64,000 nt of DNA from NCBI RefSeq assembly GCF_030684675.1, contig NZ_JAUXXZ010000059.1:1-64000 (forward strand). The letters run 5' to 3'. The position numbers were made by a program, and so were the translations under genes. The notes beneath the pieces are model-generated. The model was not told the origin of the DNA, ran no database searches, and saw only the letters and a list, made by a program, of their open reading frames with translations. Of this stretch, positions 417 to 12,359 are shown piece after piece. Within the stretch, counting starts at the first letter, position 1. The number at the start of each line of letters is the position of its first letter. Source of the DNA: Daejeonella sp. GTDB taxonomy: Bacteria; Bacteroidota; Bacteroidia; Sphingobacteriales; Sphingobacteriaceae.

Positions 417-476
417 AATTCTATAAACATTTCAAAAAATTATATAAAATATATCAAAATTTTATCCTAATCTTTG
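417..476 (+). promoter_or_regulatory. Predicted copper-regulon promoter with tandem AraC half-sites
   Basis: Two direct repeats, AATTCTATAAA at 417-427 and AATTATATAAA at 438-448 (one mismatch), start exactly 21 bp apart. A near-consensus Bacteroidota -7 element, AATCTTTG, lies at 469-476. The same arrangement precedes copA (8853-8913). A 21-bp direct-repeat spacing, about two helical turns, is typical of AraC-family activator sites. The HMA-AraC protein encoded at 8265-8837 is the obvious candidate ligand. The start codon at 488 leaves a very short leader, as is common in this phylum. Confidence 0.6.
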
Positions 477-487
477 CATGAAATTAC

Positions 488-883
488 ATGAAAAAGCTTT
501 TAATCACCGTTTTAGCTGTATTCTACCTGAGTGTTTCATCCGGGGCGACTGTGCATTTCCATTATTGCATGGGAGAGCTGATCGAGTGGGGGCTTTCTAA
601 TGACAAGTCAGAAAAAGCATCCGATTGCAGCAATTGCGGCATGAAGAAGGGTCTTTCTGAGGACTGTTGTAAAGATCAGAAGCAGGAATATAAGCTAAAA
701 AAATCTCAAAAAGCTCTGCTAAGCACCTTTCAACCTGTTGTTTTTGCTTTAGCACCAGTCTCTTATCCTGACCTTACCCAAATCTTATCGGGCACTCCTG
801 CGAATCTGATCCCTGAGAGCAATGCTCCTCCACGAACATTGAAAACTGCTATTTTCATTCGAAACTGTAATTTCCGTATCTGA
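488..883 (+). CDS. HYC_CC_PP family protein
   Basis: A 131-residue exported protein with an N-terminal hydrophobic signal (MKKLLITVLAVFYLSVSSGA). It shows the three signatures that name the family: HYC (residues 25-27), CC (60-61) and PP (114-115). Two further cysteines sit at 47 and 50. The biochemical role of this Bacteroidota family is not established. Its conserved Cys/His pattern and its place as first gene of the copper island, directly behind a promoter shared with copA, suggest periplasmic or surface metal handling; that is inference. The ATG at 488 follows the -7 element by only 11 nt. Confidence 0.8.
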   Translation: MKKLLITVLAVFYLSVSSGATVHFHYCMGELIEWGLSNDKSEKASDCSNCGMKKGLSEDCCKDQKQEYKLKKSQKALLSTFQPVVFALAPVSYPDLTQILSGTPANLIPESNAPPRTLKTAIFIRNCNFRI

Positions 884-1020
884 TTTTTATTTCCTTCTGG
901 TCTGATTTCCTTTCGGACTGATTTCGTATGTTTTTTATTCTGATAGACTCATCGGAATATTAATCATTCGATGAATTATCGCATCTATTCATTTAACCAT
1001 TAACAATAAATATTATCGTC

Positions 1021-1284
1021 ATGAGAAAATTAATTTATTCAATCGCAATTTTGGTTCTTTTATTCAGCGCTGCCTGCAATAGCTCAGAAAAGCCTGCGGC
1101 CGTAGAAACTGATTCATTATCCACTCAAACTGCAGGAGTAGGATATACCTGTCCGATGCACCCTGAAATAAAGAGTGATAAGCCGGGTACTTGTTCAATC
1201 TGCAAAATGGATCTTGTTAAAGATTCGGATCTTGAGTCGGACAGCATGATGACTGATAGCAGCAGTCACGATCATAAGCACTAA
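1021..1284 (+). CDS. Heavy-metal-binding-domain (HMBD) lipoprotein
   Basis: An 87-residue lipoprotein. A signal peptide ends in the lipobox FSAAC, so Cys19 would be lipidated. A single HMBD follows, with Cys44, Met46, His47, Cys58, Cys61 and Met63 in the YTCPMHPEI...PGTC..CKM pattern, and the tail is His-rich (SHDHKH). The same domain is found at the N-terminus of both adaptors further downstream (5733 and 7058). This stand-alone copy probably collects Cu/Ag at the periplasmic face and passes it to the pump. It ends 5 bp before the CusA start, consistent with one operon. The metal is inferred from context. Confidence 0.85.
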   Translation: MRKLIYSIAILVLLFSAACNSSEKPAAVETDSLSTQTAGVGYTCPMHPEIKSDKPGTCSICKMDLVKDSDLESDSMMTDSSSHDHKH

Positions 1285-1289
1285 GCAAA

Positions 1290-2594
1290 ATGGTTGAAAA
1301 GATCATTTCCTTTTCATTAAGGAATCGTTTCATTGTCTTGCTTTTTGCTGCTGGATTCTTTGGATTGGGACTTTATTCGGTCAAGACGAGTAAGATTGAT
1401 GCCATCCCTGATCTTTCGGAAAATCAGGTCATTGTATTTACTGAATGGATGGGACGGAGTCCGCAGATCATTGAAGATCAGATCACTTACCCTCTGGTTA
1501 CTAATCTTCAGGGATTGCCCAAAGTAAACTATGTACGTGCCAATTCAATGTTCGGGATGAGTTTCATCTATATCATTTTTGAAGATGATGTGGATGTTTA
1601 CTGGGCACGATCCAGGGTATTGGAGCGCCTCAATTCAATCGGCAATGTTTTGCCCGAAGGAGTTAGTCCGACGCTTGGCCCTGATGGGACCGGAGTCGGT
1701 CATGTACTCTGGTACACCCTCGAAGCTCCGGGCATGGACCTTGGAGAGCAGCGGGCTGTTCAGGACTGGTACATAAAGTTTGCCCTACAGAATGTAGCAG
1801 GGGTGAGTGAGATTGCCTCATTTGGTGGTTTCCAGAAACAGTATCAGATCAGTATTGATCCCAATCGCCTGACTTATTATAAGCTGGGCATTCAGGATGT
1901 GATGCGGGCAGTTAAGAGTAATAATAATGAGGCCGGAGGTAGGAAGTTTGAGATGAGTGGCATTGGTTATATTATTAAAACCAGTGGTTACCTTAAATCT
2001 ATTGAAGAGATCGAAAACCTGTCTTTACGTACTCAAAACTCTATTCCTGTGAAGATCAGGGATATCGGAACCGTTCAGATGGCCGGAGAAAGCCGTCTCG
2101 GTATATTCGATTATAATGGTGAAGGAGAAGCGGTGGGGGGGATTGTGGTATTACGTTATGGTGAGAATGCCGATGAAGTGATCCGCAAAGTGAAGACAAA
2201 AATGACTGAAGTAGCTAAGGGGTTACCCCAGGGGATGAAGTTCAATATTGTTTACGACCGGGGTGAATTGATCGCAGAATCAATATCTTCCATTAAAACT
2301 ACCCTGATCGAAGAGATGATTGTGGTATCGTTGATCGTGATCATTTTCCTGTTTCACTGGAGAAGCGCAATCAGTATCATCATCCAGATCCCAATCACCA
2401 TTGCTGCCAGTTTTATTTTGCTTAATGCATTTGATATTTCATCGAATATCATGTCATTAACCGGTATCGCACTGGCGATTGGTGTGATTGTCGATAACGG
2501 AATCATCATGGCAGAGAATTCTTACAAAAACCTTGCAGTCAGGCAGGCAGAATTAAATGAACAAAGAAAAGGAGGAAATGCAGATGTGGAATAA
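1290..2594 (+). CDS. cusA: CusA/CzcA-type heavy-metal RND pump, N-terminal part (frameshifted)
   Basis: This is the N-terminal 434 residues of an inner-membrane RND proton/metal antiporter. The first transmembrane helix (about residues 13-32) is followed by the first periplasmic porter half and by TM helices 2-4. GVIVDNGIIMAEN contains Asp402, equivalent to the TM4 proton-relay aspartate (Asp405 in E. coli CusA). The frame then runs into a TAA at 2592-2594 in the loop before TM5, about 600 residues short of the family length near 1050. The rest of the pump is in the +1 frame from 2557. The switch must lie in 2557-2594, a purine-rich tract. It may be a real frameshift, a sequencing indel or a coupled split gene. 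Confidence 0.85.
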   Translation: MVEKIISFSLRNRFIVLLFAAGFFGLGLYSVKTSKIDAIPDLSENQVIVFTEWMGRSPQIIEDQITYPLVTNLQGLPKVNYVRANSMFGMSFIYIIFEDDVDVYWARSRVLERLNSIGNVLPEGVSPTLGPDGTGVGHVLWYTLEAPGMDLGEQRAVQDWYIKFALQNVAGVSEIASFGGFQKQYQISIDPNRLTYYKLGIQDVMRAVKSNNNEAGGRKFEMSGIGYIIKTSGYLKSIEEIENLSLRTQNSIPVKIRDIGTVQMAGESRLGIFDYNGEGEAVGGIVVLRYGENADEVIRKVKTKMTEVAKGLPQGMKFNIVYDRGELIAESISSIKTTLIEEMIVVSLIVIIFLFHWRSAISIIIQIPITIAASFILLNAFDISSNIMSLTGIALAIGVIVDNGIIMAENSYKNLAVRQAELNEQRKGGNADVE

Positions 2595-4521
2595 ATCGAA
2601 ACTAAACAAAAAGCATGATGATTACGTTAAACTTTCTAATGAGGAAAGACTAAGTATTATCGAAAAAGCCTGTCAACAGGTATCAAGAGGTGTATTTTAT
2701 TCAACAATCATTATTATTACCTCTTTTCTACCGGTATTTTTACTGACCGGGCAGGAAGGAAAATTATTCCATCCGCTGGCCTATACCAAAACCTTTATTC
2801 TGATAATCGATGCGGTACTGGTGCTTACACTGGCTCCTGTAATTATTTCATTTTTCATGAAAGGGCGTTTCCGCCAGGAACATGAAAACCCAATCAACAG
2901 AGGTTTGGAGACGGTTTATCTTCCGGTGATCCGTGCCTGTATCAGAAACAGAAAAACTACACTTGGAGTTAATATTCTGGCCTTACTGATCTCTGTTCCA
3001 ATGATGATGAGCCTTGGACGAGAGTTCATGCCGCCGCTGGATGAGCAATCGATTTTGTTTATGCCGGTTACATTGCCTGATGTTTCCAATTCAGAGATCA
3101 AGCGAATTCTGCAGGTTCAGGATAAGATCATCAAATCAGTGCCGGAGGTCGACCATGTTTTGGGCAAGGCAGGCCGGGCAAGTTCAGCAACTGACAATTC
3201 ACCAATCAGTATGATCGAAACGATCATTTCGCTGAAACCAAAAAGCGAGTGGAGGCCAGGAATCAGCAAAAAGGACATCATTGATGAGCTTGATACCAAA
3301 CTTCAGATCCCCGGTGTAGTGAATGGTTGGACACAACCCATCATCAACCGTATCAATATGCTATCTACCGGTATCCGTACCGATGTTGGCGTCAAGGTAT
3401 ATGGTCAGGATTTGAAACAGATCAGCCATATCTCTGAAGATGTGCATACTATGCTGAAGAATATTGAAGGAGTGAAGGATCTGTATGTGGAGCCTGTTAG
3501 CGGTGGTAAATACCTGGAGATTGAGATCCGACGCGATCAGTTGGAGCGTTACGGATTAACTGTGGATGATATTAATGCGACAGTTGAATCAGCAATTGGG
3601 GGTACACCTTTTGCATCAACGGTTGAAGGCCGGCAACGTTTTAATATTCATTTGCGCCTGGGTCAGGAGTACCGGAACAGCATCGACCGTTTGAAAAGAA
3701 TTCCACTGACTTCCCCCGATGCGGGAACTATACCATTATCAGCCGTTACAACCATCCGTTTTGTGGATGGACCACCGATGATCAGTTCTGAAAATGCAAT
3801 CTTACGTGGTGCAGTGATGTTCAATGTGCGTGAGCGCGATCTGGGACATACAGTTCAGGAGGCTATTGATAAGTTGAATAAGGATCTGAAACTGCCTAAT
3901 GGATATTTTGTAGAATGGAGCGGTCAGTACGAAAATCTGATCCGCGGACAGCAAACCCTGGTCTATATTCTGCCGGTAGTGATCTTTATCATCTTTCTGG
4001 CACTATATCTTGCTTTTAAATCGATCAGAGAGGCATTTTTAAGTCTGGTGACCATTCCTTTCGCCCTAATCGGAGGTGCTTTCCTGGTTTATTTCTGGGG
4101 TGTGAATCTTTCAGTCGCAGTGGCGGTTGGCTTTATTGCCCTTTTCGGGATTGCCGTTGAAACAGGTGTTGTGATGGTGATTTATTTGAATGATGCGATG
4201 CGTCAGTTGGTTGCTATGAAGGGCAATTCCAGTGAAACAATTACAAAGGAGGATCTCAGAGAATATGTGATCAATGGAGCTGCGAAACGTTTACGGCCCA
4301 AGATCATGACGGTTTGTGTTGCATTATTTGGTTTGATACCTGTTTTATGGTCGGGAGGGGTCGGTAGCGATGTGATGCAGCCAATTGTTCTGCCCATGAT
4401 TGGGGGAGTTCTTACTTCTTCCACTCATATTTTACTGGTTACACCGCTGATCTTTCTGATGACTAAAGAATATGAATTGAGAAAATTTGGAAAACTGGAG
4501 GTACATGATGTTCAGCATTAA
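2557..4521 (+). CDS. cusA: CusA/CzcA-type heavy-metal RND pump, C-terminal part
   Basis: This 654-residue frame carries TM5 onward, the second periplasmic half and the last helices. Met169 (FMPVT), Met219 (SMIETI) and Met268 (RINMLSTGI) are spaced 50 and 49 residues apart, exactly as are Met573, Met623 and Met672 of E. coli CusA, the Cu(I)/Ag(I) ligands. Glu535 and Lys582 match the proton-relay residues. Substrate is therefore most likely Cu(I)/Ag(I) rather than Co/Zn/Cd. An in-frame TAA sits directly before the ATG at 2557. An AGGAGG at 2570-2575 lies 8 nt upstream of an alternative ATG at 2584, so independent translation is conceivable. It overlaps the following outer-membrane gene by 17 bp. 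Confidence 0.85.
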   Translation: MNKEKEEMQMWNKSKLNKKHDDYVKLSNEERLSIIEKACQQVSRGVFYSTIIIITSFLPVFLLTGQEGKLFHPLAYTKTFILIIDAVLVLTLAPVIISFFMKGRFRQEHENPINRGLETVYLPVIRACIRNRKTTLGVNILALLISVPMMMSLGREFMPPLDEQSILFMPVTLPDVSNSEIKRILQVQDKIIKSVPEVDHVLGKAGRASSATDNSPISMIETIISLKPKSEWRPGISKKDIIDELDTKLQIPGVVNGWTQPIINRINMLSTGIRTDVGVKVYGQDLKQISHISEDVHTMLKNIEGVKDLYVEPVSGGKYLEIEIRRDQLERYGLTVDDINATVESAIGGTPFASTVEGRQRFNIHLRLGQEYRNSIDRLKRIPLTSPDAGTIPLSAVTTIRFVDGPPMISSENAILRGAVMFNVRERDLGHTVQEAIDKLNKDLKLPNGYFVEWSGQYENLIRGQQTLVYILPVVIFIIFLALYLAFKSIREAFLSLVTIPFALIGGAFLVYFWGVNLSVAVAVGFIALFGIAVETGVVMVIYLNDAMRQLVAMKGNSSETITKEDLREYVINGAAKRLRPKIMTVCVALFGLIPVLWSGGVGSDVMQPIVLPMIGGVLTSSTHILLVTPLIFLMTKEYELRKFGKLEVHDVQH

Positions 4522-5755
4522 GAAAATAATTTTGTTGTTTGCATTCCTGAGTTCTTTTACTGTCTACGGGCAGCAGATCATGAACCTGGAGCAAATATTA
4601 GCAGAAATTAACGCCAATAATTCCTCTTTGAAGTCCTATGCAAACCGGATTCAAAGCAAGGATTCTAAAGTGGAAGGTGCCGGCTCATGGATGGCTCCAA
4701 TGGTAGGAGCAGGAACATTTATGAGTCCTTACCCAGCACAGGGGATGATTGCTGAGGGCGACCGCGGGGCATTTATGATCTCTGCCGAACAGGATATTCC
4801 CAATCCCGCAAAGATCAGGGCTAAAAAAGAATACCTTAAAACTCAGTCGCAGACTTATGAGTTTGGTAGAAATGAGCGTTTTAACCAGTTAAGAGCCAGT
4901 GCAAAGTATTTGTACTTCGGACTTTTGGTTGCTCAAAAGCGTATCGTCTTCCAGAAAGAGAATCAGCAGATTATGCAGACGATGAAAAAGCTTGCAGAGA
5001 TTCGTTATCCCTTTAATCAGGGTGGATTGAATCAGGTTTTTAAAGCTGAGGGAAGGGTCTATGAATCAGAGAATATGATCCTGATGACCGAGGCAGAGAT
5101 TCGTTCAAAAAAGATTGCCTTGAATGCATTGATGAACAGATCAGCAACAGCTGAATTTGAAATTGAAACCGAATATAAGGTTAAGTTTAGTCCTAAAGCA
5201 GATCTTGACACTGCTTATCTGGCCGGTGCCCGGAGCGATATTTTGCACATGGAACATGACATTCATGCTATGGAAAGGAATATTGATCTGATGCGGCAGG
5301 AGTCAAAACCCGATTTTAAAATTCGTTTTGACCATATGTCTAATTATTCGGCAATGATGCCAAGGCAATTTACGGTGATGGGTATGCTTTCCATTCCAAT
5401 TGCTCCCTGGTCCTCGAAAATGTATAAATCGGAGATCAAATCAATGAATTTTGAGAAGGAGGCTATGAGGCTGGAAAAAGCGGCAATGCTTACCGAGATT
5501 TTGGGGATGAGTAAGTCTATGGAAAATGATCTTCTCAACATGCAGCAGCAGTTAACTAATTATGAGACTAAGATTTTGCCTTCATTGGAGAAATACCTCA
5601 AGGTTTCAATGATATCCTACCAGGAAAATAAATCAGATCTAAATACGGTCATTGATGGGTGGGAATCAATCAATATGTCGCAGATGAATTACCTGGATCA
5701 GTTACAGAAATATTATCAAATGATTGTGGAATATGAGAAGACTATTGAACGCTAG
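4505..5755 (+). CDS. TolC/CusC-type outer-membrane efflux protein
   Basis: A 416-residue outer-membrane factor (OEP family) expected to form the exit duct for the CusA pump. The signal peptide (MMFSIKKIILLFAFLSSFTVYGQ) has no lipobox, unlike E. coli CusC. Long helical, Met- and Gln-rich segments follow, typical of the alpha-barrel. I place the start at 4505 rather than at the upstream in-frame ATG (4487), because GGAGG stands just before 4505 and the signal peptide then begins properly. It overlaps the end of cusA by 17 bp and the next gene by 23 bp, indicating translational coupling. Confidence 0.8.
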   Translation: MMFSIKKIILLFAFLSSFTVYGQQIMNLEQILAEINANNSSLKSYANRIQSKDSKVEGAGSWMAPMVGAGTFMSPYPAQGMIAEGDRGAFMISAEQDIPNPAKIRAKKEYLKTQSQTYEFGRNERFNQLRASAKYLYFGLLVAQKRIVFQKENQQIMQTMKKLAEIRYPFNQGGLNQVFKAEGRVYESENMILMTEAEIRSKKIALNALMNRSATAEFEIETEYKVKFSPKADLDTAYLAGARSDILHMEHDIHAMERNIDLMRQESKPDFKIRFDHMSNYSAMMPRQFTVMGMLSIPIAPWSSKMYKSEIKSMNFEKEAMRLEKAAMLTEILGMSKSMENDLLNMQQQLTNYETKILPSLEKYLKVSMISYQENKSDLNTVIDGWESINMSQMNYLDQLQKYYQMIVEYEKTIER

Positions 5756-7058
5756 AATTGCATTATTCCTGATCATCGGATTATCAATTTTGGCTTGTAA
5801 TTCTGATAAAAAGGCTAGTTCCGGGGGACAGGTTCAGAAATACACCTGCCCGATGCACCCGCAGATAGTAAAGGATGCACCAGGTACCTGCCCGATCTGT
5901 AAAATGGATCTGGTGCCTCGGCATACTGCTGATACACACGGCGTTGCGGATACAAGTTTAAATTCCTTAGTAAAGCCTGGCAATGAGTTGGTTATATCAG
6001 GAATCAAAACGATCAGGGTAGAGAAGGGTCTTAAAAAATCTGAAATCATCCTGAAAGGTATCATAAACTACAATACGAATAACTGGAGGTCTGTATCGGC
6101 AAGGGTCAGCGGCCGCATTGAAAAGCTGTTTGTGAAATACAATTATGAGCCGGTGAGTAAGGGACAAAAGATAATGGAGATTTACAGTCCTGATCTAGCA
6201 AATGCCCAGCAGGAATTGCTCTTTTTGAAAAACAATAACGAAACAACACTTCTTGAATCTGCCAAAAAGAAATTGGTACTTCTTGGATTGAGCATGGCCC
6301 AGATAAACAGGGTTCTGAGTACTGGAAGAATCGAGGATAGAATTGCTGTTTACAGCCCCTATTCAGGTTATGTGGCTGAATTGGGTTTAAATACCTCAGC
6401 TTCTCAGGGTCAGGTAAGCCAGGCAGGTGGAACAAAAATCAGTTCAGGAAGCGGAGTTGGGATGAATTCAATGAATGCTTCTGCTTCATCAGCAATAGTT
6501 CCGGAAATACCGGATATCCCGACGGGTGGGGCTTTGCAAATCAGGGAAGGGCAATATATCAATGCAGGCCAGAAGTTATTTGATCTGATCAATACAGATC
6601 AGGTTTGGGCCGAGTTCTTTGCCCGCCCTGATCAATTACAGGAGTTTAAGCAGGGAAAAAATGTACTGGTGCAATCCATAGATCTTGCAGATCAGCGTTC
6701 TGAAGTTGCCGTGAGCCTTGTTCAGCCCTATTTTAAGGATGGTACCAATTATTCCCTTATCAGAGCCAATCTGCCAAACAGTACTAAAATCTGGAAGGTG
6801 GGTCAACTGATTTCAGTAAGCCTGGAGGCCGCAGTTGAAGGTTACTGGCTACCAGCTACAGCCCTTGTTCAGGTTGGAACACAATATGTGGTATTTATTA
6901 AGAAGGATAATGCATTTGTACCAGTTTTTGTGAAACTGAAGCATCAGTCAGATCAGTGGATCGATATTGGTGATAGTCTGAAAGCGGATATGGAACTGGC
7001 ATTGAACGCCTGGTTTTTGATAGATAGTGAAAGTTTTATAAAAGCAAAGCGTTTATAA
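5733..7058 (+). CDS. cusB: CusB-like efflux adaptor with N-terminal HMBD (first copy)
   Basis: A 441-residue periplasmic membrane-fusion protein. It is a predicted lipoprotein (lipobox ILAC, Cys22) with an HMBD at residues 37-62 (Cys39, Met41, His42, Cys53, Cys56, Met58), then barrel-sandwich/lipoyl and beta-barrel regions of the HlyD_D23 type. A Gly/Ser/Met-rich insertion at roughly residues 215-255 interrupts the lipoyl half-motif. The start is ATG 5733; a TTG at 5724 would place extra residues before the signal peptide. It shares a TAATG junction with the next gene, a second adaptor of the same class. It would link CusA to the outer-membrane channel and deliver metal. Confidence 0.85.
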   Translation: MRRLLNARIALFLIIGLSILACNSDKKASSGGQVQKYTCPMHPQIVKDAPGTCPICKMDLVPRHTADTHGVADTSLNSLVKPGNELVISGIKTIRVEKGLKKSEIILKGIINYNTNNWRSVSARVSGRIEKLFVKYNYEPVSKGQKIMEIYSPDLANAQQELLFLKNNNETTLLESAKKKLVLLGLSMAQINRVLSTGRIEDRIAVYSPYSGYVAELGLNTSASQGQVSQAGGTKISSGSGVGMNSMNASASSAIVPEIPDIPTGGALQIREGQYINAGQKLFDLINTDQVWAEFFARPDQLQEFKQGKNVLVQSIDLADQRSEVAVSLVQPYFKDGTNYSLIRANLPNSTKIWKVGQLISVSLEAAVEGYWLPATALVQVGTQYVVFIKKDNAFVPVFVKLKHQSDQWIDIGDSLKADMELALNAWFLIDSESFIKAKRL

Positions 7059-8260
7059 TGAGAAAAAAAATAGTTTTAGGGCTGATCATTCTTTGTTCAG
7101 GATTCATTTTCTCTGCCTGTACAGAGGGGCATGAAAAACATGCGGAAGCAGGGAAATACACCTGCCCAATGCATCCTCAGATAGTAAATAATGGTCCGGG
7201 TACATGCCCGATCTGTAAAATGGATCTGGTGCCGGTAAATTCTGCAGGCGGTAAAAATGAGCTATCCCTGAGTGAAAGTCAGATTCAGTTGGCTAATATT
7301 CATACTATGGTAATCAATCGTACTGACTTCAGTACTTCAAAAGTATTGAATGGCCGATTGATAGTAAATCCGGAGCAAACCGAAGTTATTTCAAGCCGCT
7401 ATGCCGGAAGAATTGAGAAGTTGTTTGTGAAAGAAATGGGCCGGTCTGTTAGTAAAGGCCAGCCGATTTTTCAGATCTACAGCGAGGAACTTCAGACCTT
7501 GCAGCAGGATTATTTATTGCAACTGAAGCAGGTTGCGGCATTTCCGGAGGAGAAGATCTATCAGTCGATGCGGGAGGCAGCAAAAAATAAACTTCGATTG
7601 TTTGGCTATTCTGATGCTCAAATTCGAGTGCTGACTGCTGCAGGAAAAACAGCACCACTGCTCACTGTCTATTCATCAGCATCAGGAATTGTCACTGAGC
7701 TGAATGTTTCTGAAGGACAATATTTATCCGAAGGCAGCCAGATTTTAAAGCTTGAAAATTTCACACAGCTCTGGCTGGAAATGGATGTCTATCCGAATGA
7801 ATTAGGAAATATCCGTCTGGGTACAAAGGTACAGGCTTCTATAAATGGGATCAGTGATAAAGAACAGACTCTAACTATAGATTTCATTTCTCCGCAGATG
7901 GACCCATCCTCACAGATTCTGAAAGTAAGGGCCCCGGTTAAAAATCCTGGAAATTTACAGGCAGGAATGCAGGCTACGGTATTTTTACCGCTTGCCGAGA
8001 TATCAGATGCTTTGAGTTTACCATTGGATGCGGTAGTGCGGGATGAAAAGGGGGCACATGTCTGGATCAAAACGGCAAAGAATACTTATTCCCCAAGGAT
8101 GGTACGTACGGGTGAGGAGGATGCTGAACAGATCATTATCCTTTCGGGTCTTGAAAATGTGAAAGAGGTAGTAGTGAGCGGGGCATATTTGTTATCAAGT
8201 GAATTTATTTTGAAAAAGGGTACAGATCCAATGGCGGGACATGACATGAACAAAATGTAG
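7058..8260 (+). CDS. cusB: CusB-like efflux adaptor with N-terminal HMBD (second copy)
   Basis: A 400-residue paralogue of the preceding adaptor. It has lipobox FSAC (Cys21), an HMBD at residues 34-57 (Cys36, Met38, His39, Cys50, Cys53, Met55), and lipoyl and barrel domains; the C-terminus is Met/His-rich (MAGHDMNKM). It lacks the Gly/Ser/Met insertion of the first copy and is about 40 residues shorter. Two adaptors for one RND pump suggest either a mixed hexamer or a duplication retained for different metal states. Both ideas are inference. Its stop lies 4 bp before the regulator gene. Confidence 0.85.
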   Translation: MRKKIVLGLIILCSGFIFSACTEGHEKHAEAGKYTCPMHPQIVNNGPGTCPICKMDLVPVNSAGGKNELSLSESQIQLANIHTMVINRTDFSTSKVLNGRLIVNPEQTEVISSRYAGRIEKLFVKEMGRSVSKGQPIFQIYSEELQTLQQDYLLQLKQVAAFPEEKIYQSMREAAKNKLRLFGYSDAQIRVLTAAGKTAPLLTVYSSASGIVTELNVSEGQYLSEGSQILKLENFTQLWLEMDVYPNELGNIRLGTKVQASINGISDKEQTLTIDFISPQMDPSSQILKVRAPVKNPGNLQAGMQATVFLPLAEISDALSLPLDAVVRDEKGAHVWIKTAKNTYSPRMVRTGEEDAEQIIILSGLENVKEVVVSGAYLLSSEFILKKGTDPMAGHDMNKM

Positions 8261-8264
8261 AATT

Positions 8265-8837
8265 ATGGAATTATATATCAAAAACATGGTATGCAACAGG
8301 TGTATCACGGCAGTTCAAAATGAGCTGTTAAAACTTGATTTGCATCCCATAGATGTTCAAATGGGTATTGTGAAGTTAGAGGAGGAGAAACTTGATGAAG
8401 AAAAACTTCTGATCCTGAATAAGCATTTGAATGCTCTTGGATTTGAGTTACTGGATAAGGGTAAGAGCAGGGTAATTGAACAGATCAAAAATCTAATTAT
8501 TGAAAAGATCTTCCACACAGAGTTTCTGGAACAAAAAGTAAACTGGTCAGGGTTTATTGCTGATAAGATATTTCATGAGTATGGTTATTTAAGCTCCTTA
8601 TTTTCTTCCGTTGAGGGTATTACTATTGAACAATACATTATTCGCCAGAAAATTGAGCGGGTTAAAGAGCTCTTGTTTTATGATGAATTGAATCTCAGTG
8701 AAATTGCCAATAAATTAGGTTACAGCAGTATTGCTCATCTATCTGCCCAGTTCAAGAAAGTAACTGGCCAAACCCCATCTCAATTTAAAAATAGCAGGTC
8801 TATGGATGGGCAAAGAAGATCAATAGACAAGGTTTAA
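8265..8837 (+). CDS. HMA-domain AraC-type transcriptional regulator
   Basis: A 190-residue regulator with an unusual make-up. Residues 1-65 resemble a heavy-metal-associated (HMA, ferredoxin-like) fold with a CxxC pair, Cys10 and Cys13 (NMVCNRC). Residues about 90-180 form an AraC HTH (EQYIIRQKIERVKELL, then LNLSEIANKLGYSS and a second helix-turn-helix ending TPSQFKN). There is no cupin sensor. A metal-binding input domain fused to AraC output, at the end of the Cus operon and just before copA, strongly suggests a Cu(I) sensor controlling both units. Tandem 21-bp-spaced half-sites before 488 and 8931 support this. It would be autoregulated if transcribed from the 488 promoter. Confidence 0.85.
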   Translation: MELYIKNMVCNRCITAVQNELLKLDLHPIDVQMGIVKLEEEKLDEEKLLILNKHLNALGFELLDKGKSRVIEQIKNLIIEKIFHTEFLEQKVNWSGFIADKIFHEYGYLSSLFSSVEGITIEQYIIRQKIERVKELLFYDELNLSEIANKLGYSSIAHLSAQFKKVTGQTPSQFKNSRSMDGQRRSIDKV

Positions 8838-8852
8838 TCTTTTTAAACACTG

Positions 8853-8913
8853 AATTCTATAACTCTTTCCAGTAATTCTGTAAAGCCTTTAGCACCTCTA
8901 TATCATAATTTTG
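8853..8913 (+). promoter_or_regulatory. copA promoter with tandem AraC half-sites
   Basis: Direct repeats AATTCTATAAC (8853-8863) and AATTCTGTAAA (8874-8884) start 21 bp apart. A perfect Bacteroidota -7 element, TAATTTTG, is at 8906-8913, so the proximal repeat begins 32 bp upstream of it. The sequence and spacing match the repeats ahead of the gene at 488. Position overlapping the expected -33 region fits an AraC activator that replaces a weak -33 box; no good TTTG is seen at the usual distance. Confidence 0.65.
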
Positions 8914-8930
8914 TATTGTAAATCAAGATT

Positions 8931-11195
8931 ATGAAGGTAAAACCAGAATCTCAAGTAAAAGAGGCTTCCAGCACAACAATCAGAGCAGTATTTCCGGTAA
9001 CAGGCATGACCTGTGCCGGATGTGCAATCAGTGTTGAATCTATGCTTAAAGCCACAGCAGGAGTAATTGATGCAGGAGTAAATTTTGCTAATAATACAGC
9101 ATGGGCAGAGTATGATACGCTGAAAACCAATCCGCTAGCTTTACAAAAAAGTATTCAATCAATTGGATATGATATAATTATCGATACTGAGAATTCAGCA
9201 GAGCTGCAGGAGGGTTTACAGCTTAAAAACTACCGGGAGCTAAAAATCCGGACGATATGGGCTTCAATTCTTGCCTTACCTGTATTTGTAATCGGGATGT
9301 TTTTCATGGACATGCCATATGGTACCTGGATCTCTATGATACTGAGTGCTCCCGTCCTGTTCTGGTTTGGCCGAAACTTCTTTATTAATGCCTGGAAGCA
9401 GGCAAAGCATGGTATGGTGAATATGGACACTTTAGTAGCTCTGAGCACCGGAATCGCTTTCATTTTTAGCGCATTTAATACGATCTACCCTGAATACTGG
9501 CATAGCAGGGGGATACATCCGCATGTATATTATGAGGCTGCTGCTGTGATTATAGCATTTATTTCTTTCGGAAAATTACTGGAAGAGAAGGCTAAGTCAA
9601 ACACGACAACAGCCATTAAAAAATTAATGGGATTACAGCCTAAAACGGTCCGGATTCTCCAGGGTGATAAGGAAGAGGAGATTCCTGTTTCACAGGTCAT
9701 GCCTGGTCAGATTATAGTCCTGAGGCCAGGGGAAAGAGTCTCAGTAGATGGCATTGCCGTTTCAGGATCATCCTATCTGGATGAAAGCATGATCAGCGGT
9801 GAACCGATCGCAGTATTGAAAGAAGTGAATGACAAATTATTTGCAGGTACAATTAATCAGAAGGGGAGTCTCCATTTTAAAGCTGAAAAAGTAGGGGCTG
9901 ATACCTTGTTAGCACATATCGTGAAAATGGTCCAATTAGCCCAGGGAAGTAAAGCTCCGGTGCAAAAGCTAGTGGATAAGATAGCGGGAATATTTGTTCC
10001 GGTAGTAATCGGTATTTCAATTCTGACATTTGCTGTCTGGATGTTAATTGGAGGAGAACAAGCATTTTCACATGCTTTACTTACATCGGTAACTGTACTT
10101 GTCATTGCTTGTCCCTGTGCTTTAGGGCTGGCAACCCCAACAGCCATTATGGTAGGGGTTGGTAAGGGTGCTGAAAATAATATCCTCATCAAGGATGCCG
10201 AAAGTCTTGAATTAGGCTATAAGGTTAATGCAGTCATTCTTGATAAGACCGGTACCATCACTGAGGGCAGGCCAGTGGTTACCGCCGTGAATTGGGCTCC
10301 TGAAATTAAGGATCAGGATCATTATTTAAAGATTCTTTTCAGCCTGGAAGTAAATTCTGAGCATCCTCTTGCTGATGCGATAATTAAGAAATTAAGAGAG
10401 GATGGAATTTCAGGTGTTCCACTGGATTCATTTGAAAGTATCACAGCCCGGGGAGTGAGAGGAATACATAATGGGATTGGATTTGTCGCCGGGAATCTTC
10501 ATTTTATGGAGGAGCAAAAGATATTTTTGACTACAGATCAGGTAAAATATGTGCAGAAAAAGCAACATGAGGCCAATACGGTAATCTATTTTGCTAATCA
10601 GGAAAAAGTACTGGCTATTATTTCTATTGCTGATAAGGTGAAGGATTCCTCAAAAGAAGCCATTCGTCAACTGCATGAAATGGGTATTGAAGTCTATATG
10701 CTTACCGGAGATAATGAGCAAACAGCATCAGCTGTAGCAAGTGAAGTGGGTATCAAAAGTTACAGGGCTGAGGTTATGCCCTCTGATAAGGCTGATTTCA
10801 TTAAACAGCTTCAGTCTGGTGGGAAGGTTGTTGCAATGGTAGGAGATGGGATCAATGATTCTCATGCCCTGGCGCAGGCAGATGTGAGTATTGCGATGGG
10901 TAAAGGTTCAGATATTGCCATGGATGTTGCCAAGATTACCCTTATCACCTCTAACTTACTGTCGATTCCCATGGCATTGAAACTTTCAAAAAGGACCGTT
11001 CAAACTATTCGCCAAAACCTGTTCTGGGCCTTTATTTATAATATTATTGGGATTCCGCTTGCGGCGGGTGTATTGTACAGCTACAATGGTTTTTTACTCG
11101 ACCCGATGATCGCTGGGGCAGCCATGGCACTCAGTTCAGTTTCTGTGGTCAGTAACAGTCTCAGATTAAAGGCTTTAAAACTCAAGTCTAATTAA
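8931..11195 (+). CDS. copA: Cu(I)-exporting P1B-type ATPase
   Basis: A 754-residue P-type ATPase that exports Cu(I)/Ag(I) from cytoplasm to periplasm. It has one N-terminal HMA domain (GMTCAGC, Cys28 and Cys31), the A-domain loop ending SGEP (289-292), the CPC metal motif in TM6 (394-396), DKTGT with phosphorylated Asp438, the SEHP motif (His478-Pro479), a TGDN hinge and GDGIND. In the last two helices, YN (FIYNIIG) and MALSS (AAMALSSVSVV) are the residues that mark the Cu(I) subgroup. It is complete and of normal length. Its own promoter lies at 8853-8913, and it is followed 27 bp later by a small HMA protein. Confidence 0.95.
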   Translation: MKVKPESQVKEASSTTIRAVFPVTGMTCAGCAISVESMLKATAGVIDAGVNFANNTAWAEYDTLKTNPLALQKSIQSIGYDIIIDTENSAELQEGLQLKNYRELKIRTIWASILALPVFVIGMFFMDMPYGTWISMILSAPVLFWFGRNFFINAWKQAKHGMVNMDTLVALSTGIAFIFSAFNTIYPEYWHSRGIHPHVYYEAAAVIIAFISFGKLLEEKAKSNTTTAIKKLMGLQPKTVRILQGDKEEEIPVSQVMPGQIIVLRPGERVSVDGIAVSGSSYLDESMISGEPIAVLKEVNDKLFAGTINQKGSLHFKAEKVGADTLLAHIVKMVQLAQGSKAPVQKLVDKIAGIFVPVVIGISILTFAVWMLIGGEQAFSHALLTSVTVLVIACPCALGLATPTAIMVGVGKGAENNILIKDAESLELGYKVNAVILDKTGTITEGRPVVTAVNWAPEIKDQDHYLKILFSLEVNSEHPLADAIIKKLREDGISGVPLDSFESITARGVRGIHNGIGFVAGNLHFMEEQKIFLTTDQVKYVQKKQHEANTVIYFANQEKVLAIISIADKVKDSSKEAIRQLHEMGIEVYMLTGDNEQTASAVASEVGIKSYRAEVMPSDKADFIKQLQSGGKVVAMVGDGINDSHALAQADVSIAMGKGSDIAMDVAKITLITSNLLSIPMALKLSKRTVQTIRQNLFWAFIYNIIGIPLAAGVLYSYNGFLLDPMIAGAAMALSSVSVVSNSLRLKALKLKSN

Positions 11196-11222: not shown

Positions 11223-11429
11223 ATGGAAACAATTAAATTTAAAACGAATATCAAATGTACCGGATGTCTGGCTCAGGTCGGTCCGGCATTGAACGAGACT
11301 GCCGGTGAGAATAACTGGAAGGTAGATCTTGATTCAAGCGACAAAACATTAACTGTTGAGGGAGATCTTAAGGAAGCTGAAATAATTGCTACAGTGAATA
11401 GGGCAGGATATACAGCCGAAAGGGTCTAA
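11223..11429 (+). CDS. Small HMA-domain copper chaperone-like protein
   Basis: A 68-residue cytoplasmic protein consisting of one HMA fold with a CTGC metal motif (KCTGC, about residues 12-16) and the usual betaalphabetabetaalphabeta pattern (VDLDSSDKTLTVEG, then AGYTAERV). It is co-oriented with copA and followed directly by an intrinsic terminator. It probably delivers Cu(I) to CopA or buffers it, by analogy with CopZ/Atx1. The spacer residues (TG) differ from the common MxCxxC of CopZ, and no Met precedes the first Cys, so metal preference is less certain. Confidence 0.8.
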   Translation: METIKFKTNIKCTGCLAQVGPALNETAGENNWKVDLDSSDKTLTVEGDLKEAEIIATVNRAGYTAERV

Positions 11430-11483: not shown

Positions 11484-12245
11484 TTATTGAGAAATTGTGA
11501 TCGTACCAAGATCTTTTACAGATCCAGTAACCACCGCAACATTCTCAATAGTTTTATTGATGTACGGACTTACAGGTTGAATCTCAACTTTATAAGTTCC
11601 GGCAGCTACACCAGGGAACCAAAATTTACCGGTCGCATCACTAACAGTCCCAAGAGTATCAGTTCCTGCGATCGCATAGATCTTAGGATTAGAAGCTGAG
11701 GGTGTAATGACACCTGTAATAGCTCCTGAAACAGCATTAGGAATAGCTCTGATTACAGGTTTTAAGATGTATTTGCCATTTCCAGTCTGAACAATAGATT
11801 TTGCAGCATCAAAGTCAAGCAACATAGTATAGGCAACACCTGCTTCCAGGCTTTCCTGAACTTTTAATTTTACTCCTGAACTCTGTCCGCTTGGTGTAGT
11901 CAAAGCATAGGTCACCCCATTGATCTTAACCTGATTTCCGGAATCATTTAATACAAGCCGTACTTCCTTAATATTTCCTGAAGGAATATCCTGAGAAGCA
12001 ATAAGCGTATCCTTACCCATTCTGAAATTAAGAATATTGAAAGGGGTAGAACCAACGGGCATTGTGCTTGTTCCATCAGATGTTAGAATCTGGATTTCTT
12101 TAACACTTAAATAAATAGCATCATAAGCACCGGGACTATCGGTGATCTTTACATTCATCCTGGTCATGCCCTCGTCGCTGTTCTTCTTACAGGCTGTAAA
12201 TCCCATTGCAAGGCCAATACAGCCAATGATCATTAATTTTTTCAT
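11484..12245 (-). CDS. DUF4382 lipoprotein with carboxypeptidase-regulatory-like tail
   Basis: A 253-residue predicted lipoprotein from the ATG at 12245 (MKKLMIIGCIGLAMGFTAC; lipobox GFTAC). The longer frame to 12302 adds residues that do not resemble a signal. After a short linker, residues about 27-170 fit DUF4382 (MNVKITDSPGAYDAIYLSV...), a beta-sandwich domain common in Bacteroidota surface lipoproteins. The last 80 residues (GAITGVITPSA...AAGTYKVEIQP) resemble a carboxypeptidase regulatory-like beta-domain. Function is unknown; surface binding is a guess. It is convergent with the copper island and not clearly part of it. Confidence 0.8.
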   Translation of the reverse strand: MKKLMIIGCIGLAMGFTACKKNSDEGMTRMNVKITDSPGAYDAIYLSVKEIQILTSDGTSTMPVGSTPFNILNFRMGKDTLIASQDIPSGNIKEVRLVLNDSGNQVKINGVTYALTTPSGQSSGVKLKVQESLEAGVAYTMLLDFDAAKSIVQTGNGKYILKPVIRAIPNAVSGAITGVITPSASNPKIYAIAGTDTLGTVSDATGKFWFPGVAAGTYKVEIQPVSPYINKTIENVAVVTGSVKDLGTITISQ

Positions 12246-12359
12246 AATATTTTTTCTTAGGTGTCTACTAGATGTACACTGATAAATCAATTGCCGTGCC
12301 ACTACATTTTTTGATTTGAAATAAACTGGCTTGGTTTATGTTGTATAGATCGTAACTAA

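Follow-up and report, generated by a model that had tools for sequence, protein, structure and literature searches.

Tandem half-sites at copper promoters as candidate operators of an HMA-AraC regulator in Daejeonella sp. and other Bacteroidota

Which protein reads a pair of repeats that stands before two copper-type promoters and encloses a regulator gene? The question is raised by the first 64,000 nucleotides of contig NZ_JAUXXZ010000059.1 of Daejeonella sp. (assembly GCF_030684675.1; this whole stretch is the window below). Here, a cus-type efflux operon and a copA-copZ pair are each preceded by two direct half-sites 21 base pairs (bp) apart, and between the two promoters lies the gene of a 190-residue protein that joins an HMA-like domain to an AraC DNA-binding domain. 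We consider it highly probable that the repeats are the operators of this protein, which would be a one-component copper activator composed of an Atx1/CopZ-like HMA domain and an AraC domain. The binding to DNA, the metal and the sign of control are predictions from sequence.

Paired sites at two copper promoters

The two pairs, here operators 1 and 2 (Table 1), were reported in a preliminary description of this DNA to have the same sequence, the same 21-bp period and nearly the same distance to a -7 element. On re-reading, all of this stands as written: the second half-site begins 31 bp (operator 1) and 32 bp (operator 2) ahead of the -7 region. The Bacteroidota -7 consensus, TAnnTTTG, is placed at -12 to -5 in the text of PMC9723704, and operator 2 is predicted to lie at about -65 to -34. 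The window holds three matches with at most three mismatches to AATTMTRTAAM-N10-AATTMTRTAAM, against 0.12 expected from shuffles, and the zero-mismatch matches are operators 1 and 2. These counts, together with the reversed-pattern and shuffle controls given below, bear out the earlier judgement that chance is an unlikely source of the repeats. When the window was scanned with a matrix built from promoters across the phylum, nothing apart from the two operators reached 11 bits. Operator 1 is also kept on contigs of three relatives (G109, G098 and G086).

Conservation across Bacteroidota

We read the neighborhoods of 40 regulator loci from the same family and of 80 loci from named genome records, the latter being the best 80 of at least 593 relatives. 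Nearly all the named relatives are labelled Bacteroidota, with a few metagenome-assembled genomes labelled Pseudomonadota or Ignavibacteria (L112, L149, L157 and L159), and the HMA-AraC regulator is, judging by these sequences, widespread in Bacteroidota. The copA gene lies within 600 bp downstream of the regulator in 28 of the 80 named loci; from loci L041-L080, 26 of 40 were taken on a CopA match near the regulator, not always adjacent to it. After removal of redundancy, 47 copA promoters adjacent or close to the regulator remained; their autocorrelation peaks at lag 21 (z 11.1), with weaker signals at lag 33 (z 4.6) and lag 9 (z 3.0). Direct repeats two helical turns apart at the target promoters, a trait of AraC/XylS proteins, are thus present at the sequence level in this set.

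A joint matrix from 42 of the 47 promoters (five were dropped beforehand, and later scans dropped three more, leaving 39 sites) has the consensus AATNTTRYAA-N11-AATNNYRYAA. The TTTG of the -7 box begins 23 or 24 bp past the 33-base site in 34 of the 35 promoters with TTTG in view and, anchored on this box with TAnnTTTG at -12 to -5, the two half-sites are positioned near -65 to -56 and -44 to -35. The preliminary description had let its case hang on whether the repeats are conserved next to the same regulator in relatives: the 21-bp spacing, the -7 distance and a related half-site are kept at copA beside the regulator in many Bacteroidota. The motif scan that it proposed for related species found sites before copA, HYC/cus and other metal genes. 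Its half-site, AATTCTRTAAM, survives as a local dialect, whereas the phylum-wide form is better given as AATNTTRYAA.

Scanned over 121 sources, the 39-site matrix gave 128 matches of at least 15 bits, training sites included, of which 110 had TTTG at 21-26 bp; the reversed matrix gave 15 and 4 on the same sources. In a hold-out, a matrix trained on 16 sites of family f1 found 22 of 26 copA promoters in loci outside Sphingobacteriales and its families, and 20 of 24 after loci sharing a 40-mer with the training loci had also been removed; 0.2% of letter-shuffled promoters passed the same matrix. TTTG, which is outside the matrix, stood at 23/24 bp in 61 of 91 held-out matches versus 1 of 17 for the reversed matrix. 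Furthermore, of 67 held-out loci, 38 had a site in the 400 bp that follow the regulator, as did 13 of the 39 in which the next gene is not copA; random windows drawn from these loci had one in 35 of 1340 cases.

The presence of the regulator was compared with that of the site over 395 genomes of the phylum, using a composite pattern. Matches occurred in 82 of 180 genomes with the regulator (E <=1e-25) versus 10 of 215 without it. Additionally, copA loci were sampled from 30 of the 215 regulator-less genomes, all 10 pattern-matching ones included, and from 30 of the 180 regulator genomes; of the 60 loci, one (L353) yielded no reading. Fourteen bits were reached by none of 30 regulator-less loci (from 26 genomes, four sampled genomes having no copA match) and by 9 of 29 loci from regulator genomes, with medians of 0.6 and 9.1. 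The composite matches in the ten regulator-less genomes (G208, G234, G285, G306, G387, G456, G460, G468, G483 and G550) may be due to chance or to another regulator.

As a separate observation, five loci of the named set (L114, L125, L135, L138 and L165) share 40-mers with family f1 loci, which hints at recent DNA transfer around the copper clusters.

The HMA-AraC regulator

The C-terminal part of the 190-residue regulator is an AraC DNA-binding domain (PF12833, 62.1 bits; PF00165, 44 bits; both over their cut-offs), and near its N terminus lies a metal-binding loop of the form MxCxxC (M8-V9-C10-N-R-C13). An AlphaFold2 model from 70 sequences (mean predicted local distance difference test score, pLDDT, 89.4) is laid out as an HMA-like fold, a linker helix (residues 67-84) and the AraC domain (94-181). 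The N-terminal elements follow the order beta-alpha-beta-beta-alpha-beta (E2-6 H11-23 E28-32 E35-38 H45-57 E61-63), with pLDDT 84-96 in the secondary-structure blocks of residues 1-70. When the model was compared with known folds by Foldseek and VIA-align, residues 65-181 matched the AraT, MarA, AdpA, SoxS and AraC domains (Z 9.9-11.7), and the N-terminal part matched GolB, Atx1, CopZ and the CopA N terminus (Z 6.9-7.7).

In the model, the fold alone does not single out HMA for the N terminus; it is the MxCxxC loop that points there. The domain is HMA-like, a name given by fold and motif without a profile match. The loop is present in 41 of the 41 regulators first compared and in 142 of 158 sequences of a wider set with some duplicates, the other 16 having Ser as the first Cys. 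Scanned with Pfam and NCBIfam, the regulator gave AraC-type matches only and none to MerR/CueR, CsoR or CopY domains. The MxCxxC loop, the HMA-like model fold and the two AraC profiles support the earlier proposal of a CxxC HMA input with an AraC output.

Sites in the Daejeonella genome and genus

The Daejeonella sp. genome (4,254,550 bases on 84 contigs) was searched by patterns. Ten places match AATTMTRTAAM-N10-AATTMTRTAAM with at most three mismatches, and three with 0 or 1: operators 1 and 2 and C20:29992. Because the reversed control pattern is commoner (24) at up to three mismatches, only the class with 0-1 mismatch is meaningful genome-wide. C20:29992 fronts a His-rich HYC_CC_PP-like protein (27.8 against a cut-off of 28) and a DUF3347 protein. 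All three sites precede metal-type genes, DUF3347 being counted as such by its recurrence in copper loci, and two of the three front HYC_CC_PP or HYC_CC_PP-like proteins, a poorly known family. A looser tandem pattern adds one place at one mismatch, C8:35935.

With the composite pattern, whose fixed 24-bp gap misses operator 1 (gap 23), the best match in this genome outside the window (C51:6814, locus L264, 0 mismatches) is 238 bp upstream of a DUF2383 gene and follows a sensor-kinase-like open reading frame (ORF). C84:31621 (two mismatches) was taken as chance, the reversed control having three in this genome.

At the genus level, 22 tandem places were found versus 6 for the reversed control. 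Sixteen of the 22 front copA (4), HYC (4), the His-rich HYC-like protein (7) or DUF305 (1); three are located between a regulator paralogue, which they follow directly, and the gene of a large ice-binding-type protein (one of these was run through Pfam); and three fall within ORFs. Of the 11 genus genomes that have the regulator (E below 1e-40), 9 carry sites at metal genes; the 9 that lack it carry none. Over the genus and phylum scans together, the targets other than copA are HYC/cus operons, CusB/CusA-like genes, CopZ-like chaperones, ArsP-HMA and HMA-MauE proteins, a DUF305 protein, a multicopper oxidase and, in some places, regulator genes themselves. By sequence, the operator tracks both the regulator and metal genes.

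A putative stress branch of paralogues and sites

The phylum scan found up to 13 sites per genome in genus g29 of family f4. Pfam names for the genes sampled behind the sites of g29 and of a neighboring genus are Dps/ferritin, MlaE, DUF4142, pyridoxamine-oxidase-like, DUF4382, DUF1328, CsbD, DUF2383, YMGG-like glycine-zipper and outer-membrane barrel, while two sampled genes had no family. In other families, the same layout precedes YtxH, DUF2383 (in the Daejeonella sp. genome) and two ice-binding proteins. The copper regulon first proposed is upheld insofar as sites stand at copper genes next to the regulator; the layout is not confined to copper and also fronts stress genes. A copper-only reading was rejected on the many sites per family f4 genome and the stress types of the sampled genes behind them.

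Several clusters of stress-gene sites have nearby paralogues with Ser for the first Cys, which make up 16 of 158 full-length sequences and 13 of 149 distinct ones. In a tree of 98 sequences (quick method, unrooted, 45 of 95 inner branches below 80, third paralogue type excluded), the 11 Ser rows form one clade among Cys-bearing rows by a single change (SH-aLRT, the Shimodaira-Hasegawa-like approximate likelihood ratio test, 88). This clade is nested in a 13-row clade (99) that includes the second paralogue of Daejeonella sp. The third paralogue type, without CxxC, accounts for 9 of 25 paralogues read in ten family f4 genomes, and two of its members lie within site clusters (G282:C2:462071 and G300:C1:1994413). 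The operator precedes the Ser-type regulator gene itself in L243, L246 and L247 (G337, G532 and G267), which suggests autoregulation of the Ser-type regulators. The site at the second Daejeonella sp. paralogue (L233, L260) starts at the stop codon of that gene and fronts a Big_5/ice-binding protein; the order paralogue, site, ice-binding protein recurs in two other species of the genus.

Copper-gene sites and other sites of family f4 differ at position 8 of the first half-site: all 13 of the former carry C there, against 6 of the 44 latter. Genes were assigned to the two groups by similarity to the window proteins, so that some metal genes may fall among the 44. We put forward, tentatively and at somewhat less than an even chance, that the HMA-AraC activators of Bacteroidota are a single family sharing a rigid promoter layout and that its copper branch is a main cytosolic copper sensor of the phylum. 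From this branch, or from a common ancestor, paralogues would have arisen that lost one and then both cysteines (MVCxRC, MVSxRC, KFDxxxxC or none) and that now use the same operator, mostly with T for C at position 8, to direct a stress/envelope regulon (Dps, CsbD, YtxH, DUF2383, DUF4142, MlaE, ice-binding). A metal sensor would thereby have turned into a stress master regulator, operator and regulator having co-diverged against cross-talk.

Proposed mechanism and alternative explanations

In the copper branch, a rise in cytosolic Cu(I) would lead to Cu(I) binding at the MxCxxC loop, through C10 and C13. One regulator molecule may then bind at each direct half-site, so that the pair sits on the same face of the helix at a distance of two turns, and the protein on the lower site, touching the -33 region, would contact sigma or RNA polymerase as a class II activator. 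The predicted targets of activation are the cus-type operon and copA-copZ, joined by one or more His/Cys protein genes outside this locus. As the last gene of the cus-type operon, the regulator would activate itself in a feed-forward manner via the cus promoter. The same regulator-operator pair is probably a common copper switch in Bacteroidota, while stress genes with this promoter layout, altered in one half-site letter, would be run by paralogues that lack the metal-binding cysteines.

Several observations weigh against this interpretation. The N-terminal domain is missed by PF00403 (the Pfam HMA profile) at E 0.01, and its Z scores with HMA proteins, a middling range, are equalled by those with ACT and AcuB domains, which share the general fold. 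A small leak affects the hold-out, since the all-promoter matrix had served to place its training sites; the family matrix missed 4 of 28 promoters (L121, L122, L150 and L152), although the L150 and L152 sites were found farther upstream of the called start by the phylum-matrix scan; and the L052 promoter failed to align. A strict match is missing from 98 of the 180 regulator genomes and present in 10 regulator-less ones. Among the copA loci of regulator genomes, 20 of 29 stay below 14 bits, and the contrast shrinks to 4/29 versus 0/30 when TTTG is also demanded; the copA-locus sets are unmatched in base composition. The rows are related, so the p-values (4e-23 for the composite pattern over the phylum and 0.05 for the copA loci with TTTG) overstate independence. 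Finally, the same promoter layout also fronts stress genes, and the Daejeonella sp. genome has two full-length family members, the second one, with CxxC, at C8:35375-35995.

That the repeats are AT-rich chance or generic promoter (UP/-33) sequence with no dedicated regulator is an explanation of almost negligible probability. The half-sites are indeed AT-rich, and the reversed control pattern is also commoner in genomes with the regulator (19/180 versus 5/215), perhaps via composition or size. Against this stand reversed controls about 4- to 9-fold rarer than the real pattern, a single sharp lag at 21 and the absence of sites at all 30 regulator-less copA loci, and we rejected the chance reading because the shuffle, reversed-pattern, lag and hold-out controls contradict it. 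It is improbable, to a lesser degree, that another protein binds the repeats, such as the C8 HMA-AraC paralogue or a broader stress regulator, with the encoded regulator acting elsewhere or being redundant. This would suit a genome with two full-length family members, the C8 paralogue directly before a site of the same type, and the perfect C51:6814 match in front of a DUF2383 gene. It fits poorly with the copper regulator itself adjoining a site in 38/67 held-out loci and with the difference at position 8 in family f4 (13/13 C versus 6/44), as expected if each branch owns its sites.

The sign and the input of the candidate copper activator also have competing explanations. A repressor bound at the operator, or a dual regulator, released by Cu(I) as CopY or CsoR are, has a low probability in our estimate: a protein on half-site 2 would extend to the -33 region and might obstruct polymerase, but the placement upstream of -33 at a fixed -7 distance (34/35 promoters with TTTG in view) is in the style of a class II activator, and AraC proteins with tandem direct sites are mostly activators. 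An input by another soft metal (Ag, Hg, Cd or Zn) or by thiol oxidation instead of Cu(I) is likewise rather unlikely, if slightly less so. HMA CxxC sites can bind several soft metals, and one paralogue branch retains a single cysteine of the pair; however, MxCxxC is the Cu(I) type, and the gene neighborhood includes a cus-type pump and a multicopper oxidase alongside copA and copZ.

Relation to known regulators

The closest likeness in geometry is AraC of Escherichia coli, which binds two direct half-sites at araBAD I1-I2. The two cases share an AraC DNA-binding domain and direct half-sites, bound or predicted to be bound, 21 bp apart on one DNA face with the lower at the -35/-33 region, whereas the regulator described here has an HMA-like metal domain in place of the arabinose-binding domain and a Bacteroidota-type -7 promoter. 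CueR, of the MerR family, is likewise a one-component Cu(I) regulator of copA and efflux genes, a role that is predicted from sequence in the present case; it differs in fold, in its palindromic site within the promoter spacer and in activation by DNA distortion, and the regulator here has no MerR domain. CsoR and CopY also control copA/copZ in response to Cu(I), again a prediction here, but they are repressors of other folds with no homologous domain in this regulator. The HMA fold and MxCxxC are common to the regulator, the Atx1/CopZ metallochaperones and the CopA N-terminal domain; in the regulator, the HMA-like domain is fused to a DNA-binding domain and escapes the PF00403 profile.

Every piece has a known relative. 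Neither the combination, as a variant of AraC-type regulation, nor the wide operator was found described by searches aimed at them in open-licence papers, which is weak evidence of novelty, and the words "AraC" and "copper" are both absent from the main text of PMC9723704. If the proposal is true, many bacteria of this phylum, whose members live in gut, soil, water and the sea, would share a defined copper switch of the one-component kind, and its operator would be sharp enough for regulons to be read off genomes. It would bear on copper sensing in Bacteroidota and on the control of a set of their stress genes. With some branches keeping the cysteines and others lacking them on a common promoter frame, the family would also offer a natural experiment, in which a sensor changes its signal and regulator and site change together.

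Genes of the locus

Table 1. Predicted operators, promoter elements and genes of the copper locus, in window coordinates.
Feature	Position	Strand	Basis or remark
Operator 1 half-sites	AATTCTATAAA 417-427, AATTATATAAA 438-448	+	21 bp apart, before cus-type operon
Operator 1, span	417..448	+	Phylum matrix 19.3 bits; TTTG 23 bp downstream
-7 element, cus-type operon promoter	469-476	+	AATCTTTG, one base off TAnnTTTG
HYC_CC_PP small Cys/His protein	488..883	+	NF047658 48.1 bits, cut-off 28; first gene of operon
Lipoprotein-like protein, heavy-metal-binding domain (HMBD; YTCPMHPEI)	1021..1284	+	PF19335 53.4 bits
N-terminal half, split CusA-type RND pump	1290..2594	+	TIGR00914 positions 1-430
C-terminal half, split CusA-type RND pump	2557..4521	+	TIGR00914 positions 424-1036
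Outer-membrane efflux protein, CusC-like	4487..5755	+	PF02321 70.5 bits
Membrane fusion protein, CusB-like, with HMBD	5724..7058	+	PF16576 144.2 bits, PF19335
Second membrane fusion protein, CusB-like, with HMBD	7058..8260	+	PF16576 177.4 bits, PF19335
HMA-AraC regulator, 190 residues	8265..8837	+	Last gene of operon, just before copA promoter
Operator 2 half-sites	AATTCTATAAC 8853-8863, AATTCTGTAAA 8874-8884	+	21 bp apart, before copA
Operator 2, span	8853..8884	+	Phylum matrix 20.9 bits; TTTG 24 bp downstream
-7 element, copA promoter	8906-8913	+	TAATTTTG, perfect TAnnTTTG
copA, Cu(I)-type P1B ATPase	8931..11195	+	TIGR01511 595.6 bits, cut-off 397
CopZ-like HMA chaperone	11223..11429	+	PF00403 26.2 bits

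Because the gene spacing is tight, the regulator gene is probably cotranscribed with the cus-type operon and would then be under operator 1. On the other side of copA, copZ is adjoined by a DUF4382 gene on the opposite strand (11484-12302), before which the phylum-matrix scan found no site of at least 11 bits; the DUF4382 gene of another genome (L218) sits behind a tandem site.

The CusA-type pump is encoded by two ORFs. By eye, the split point falls in the cytoplasmic loop after transmembrane segment 4. Because relatives share the same split, it looks like a real gene fission: it recurs in L041, L042, L043 and L046, as well as in Dawidia (L105) and Paraflavitalea (L167), where the two ORFs, as called, do not overlap.

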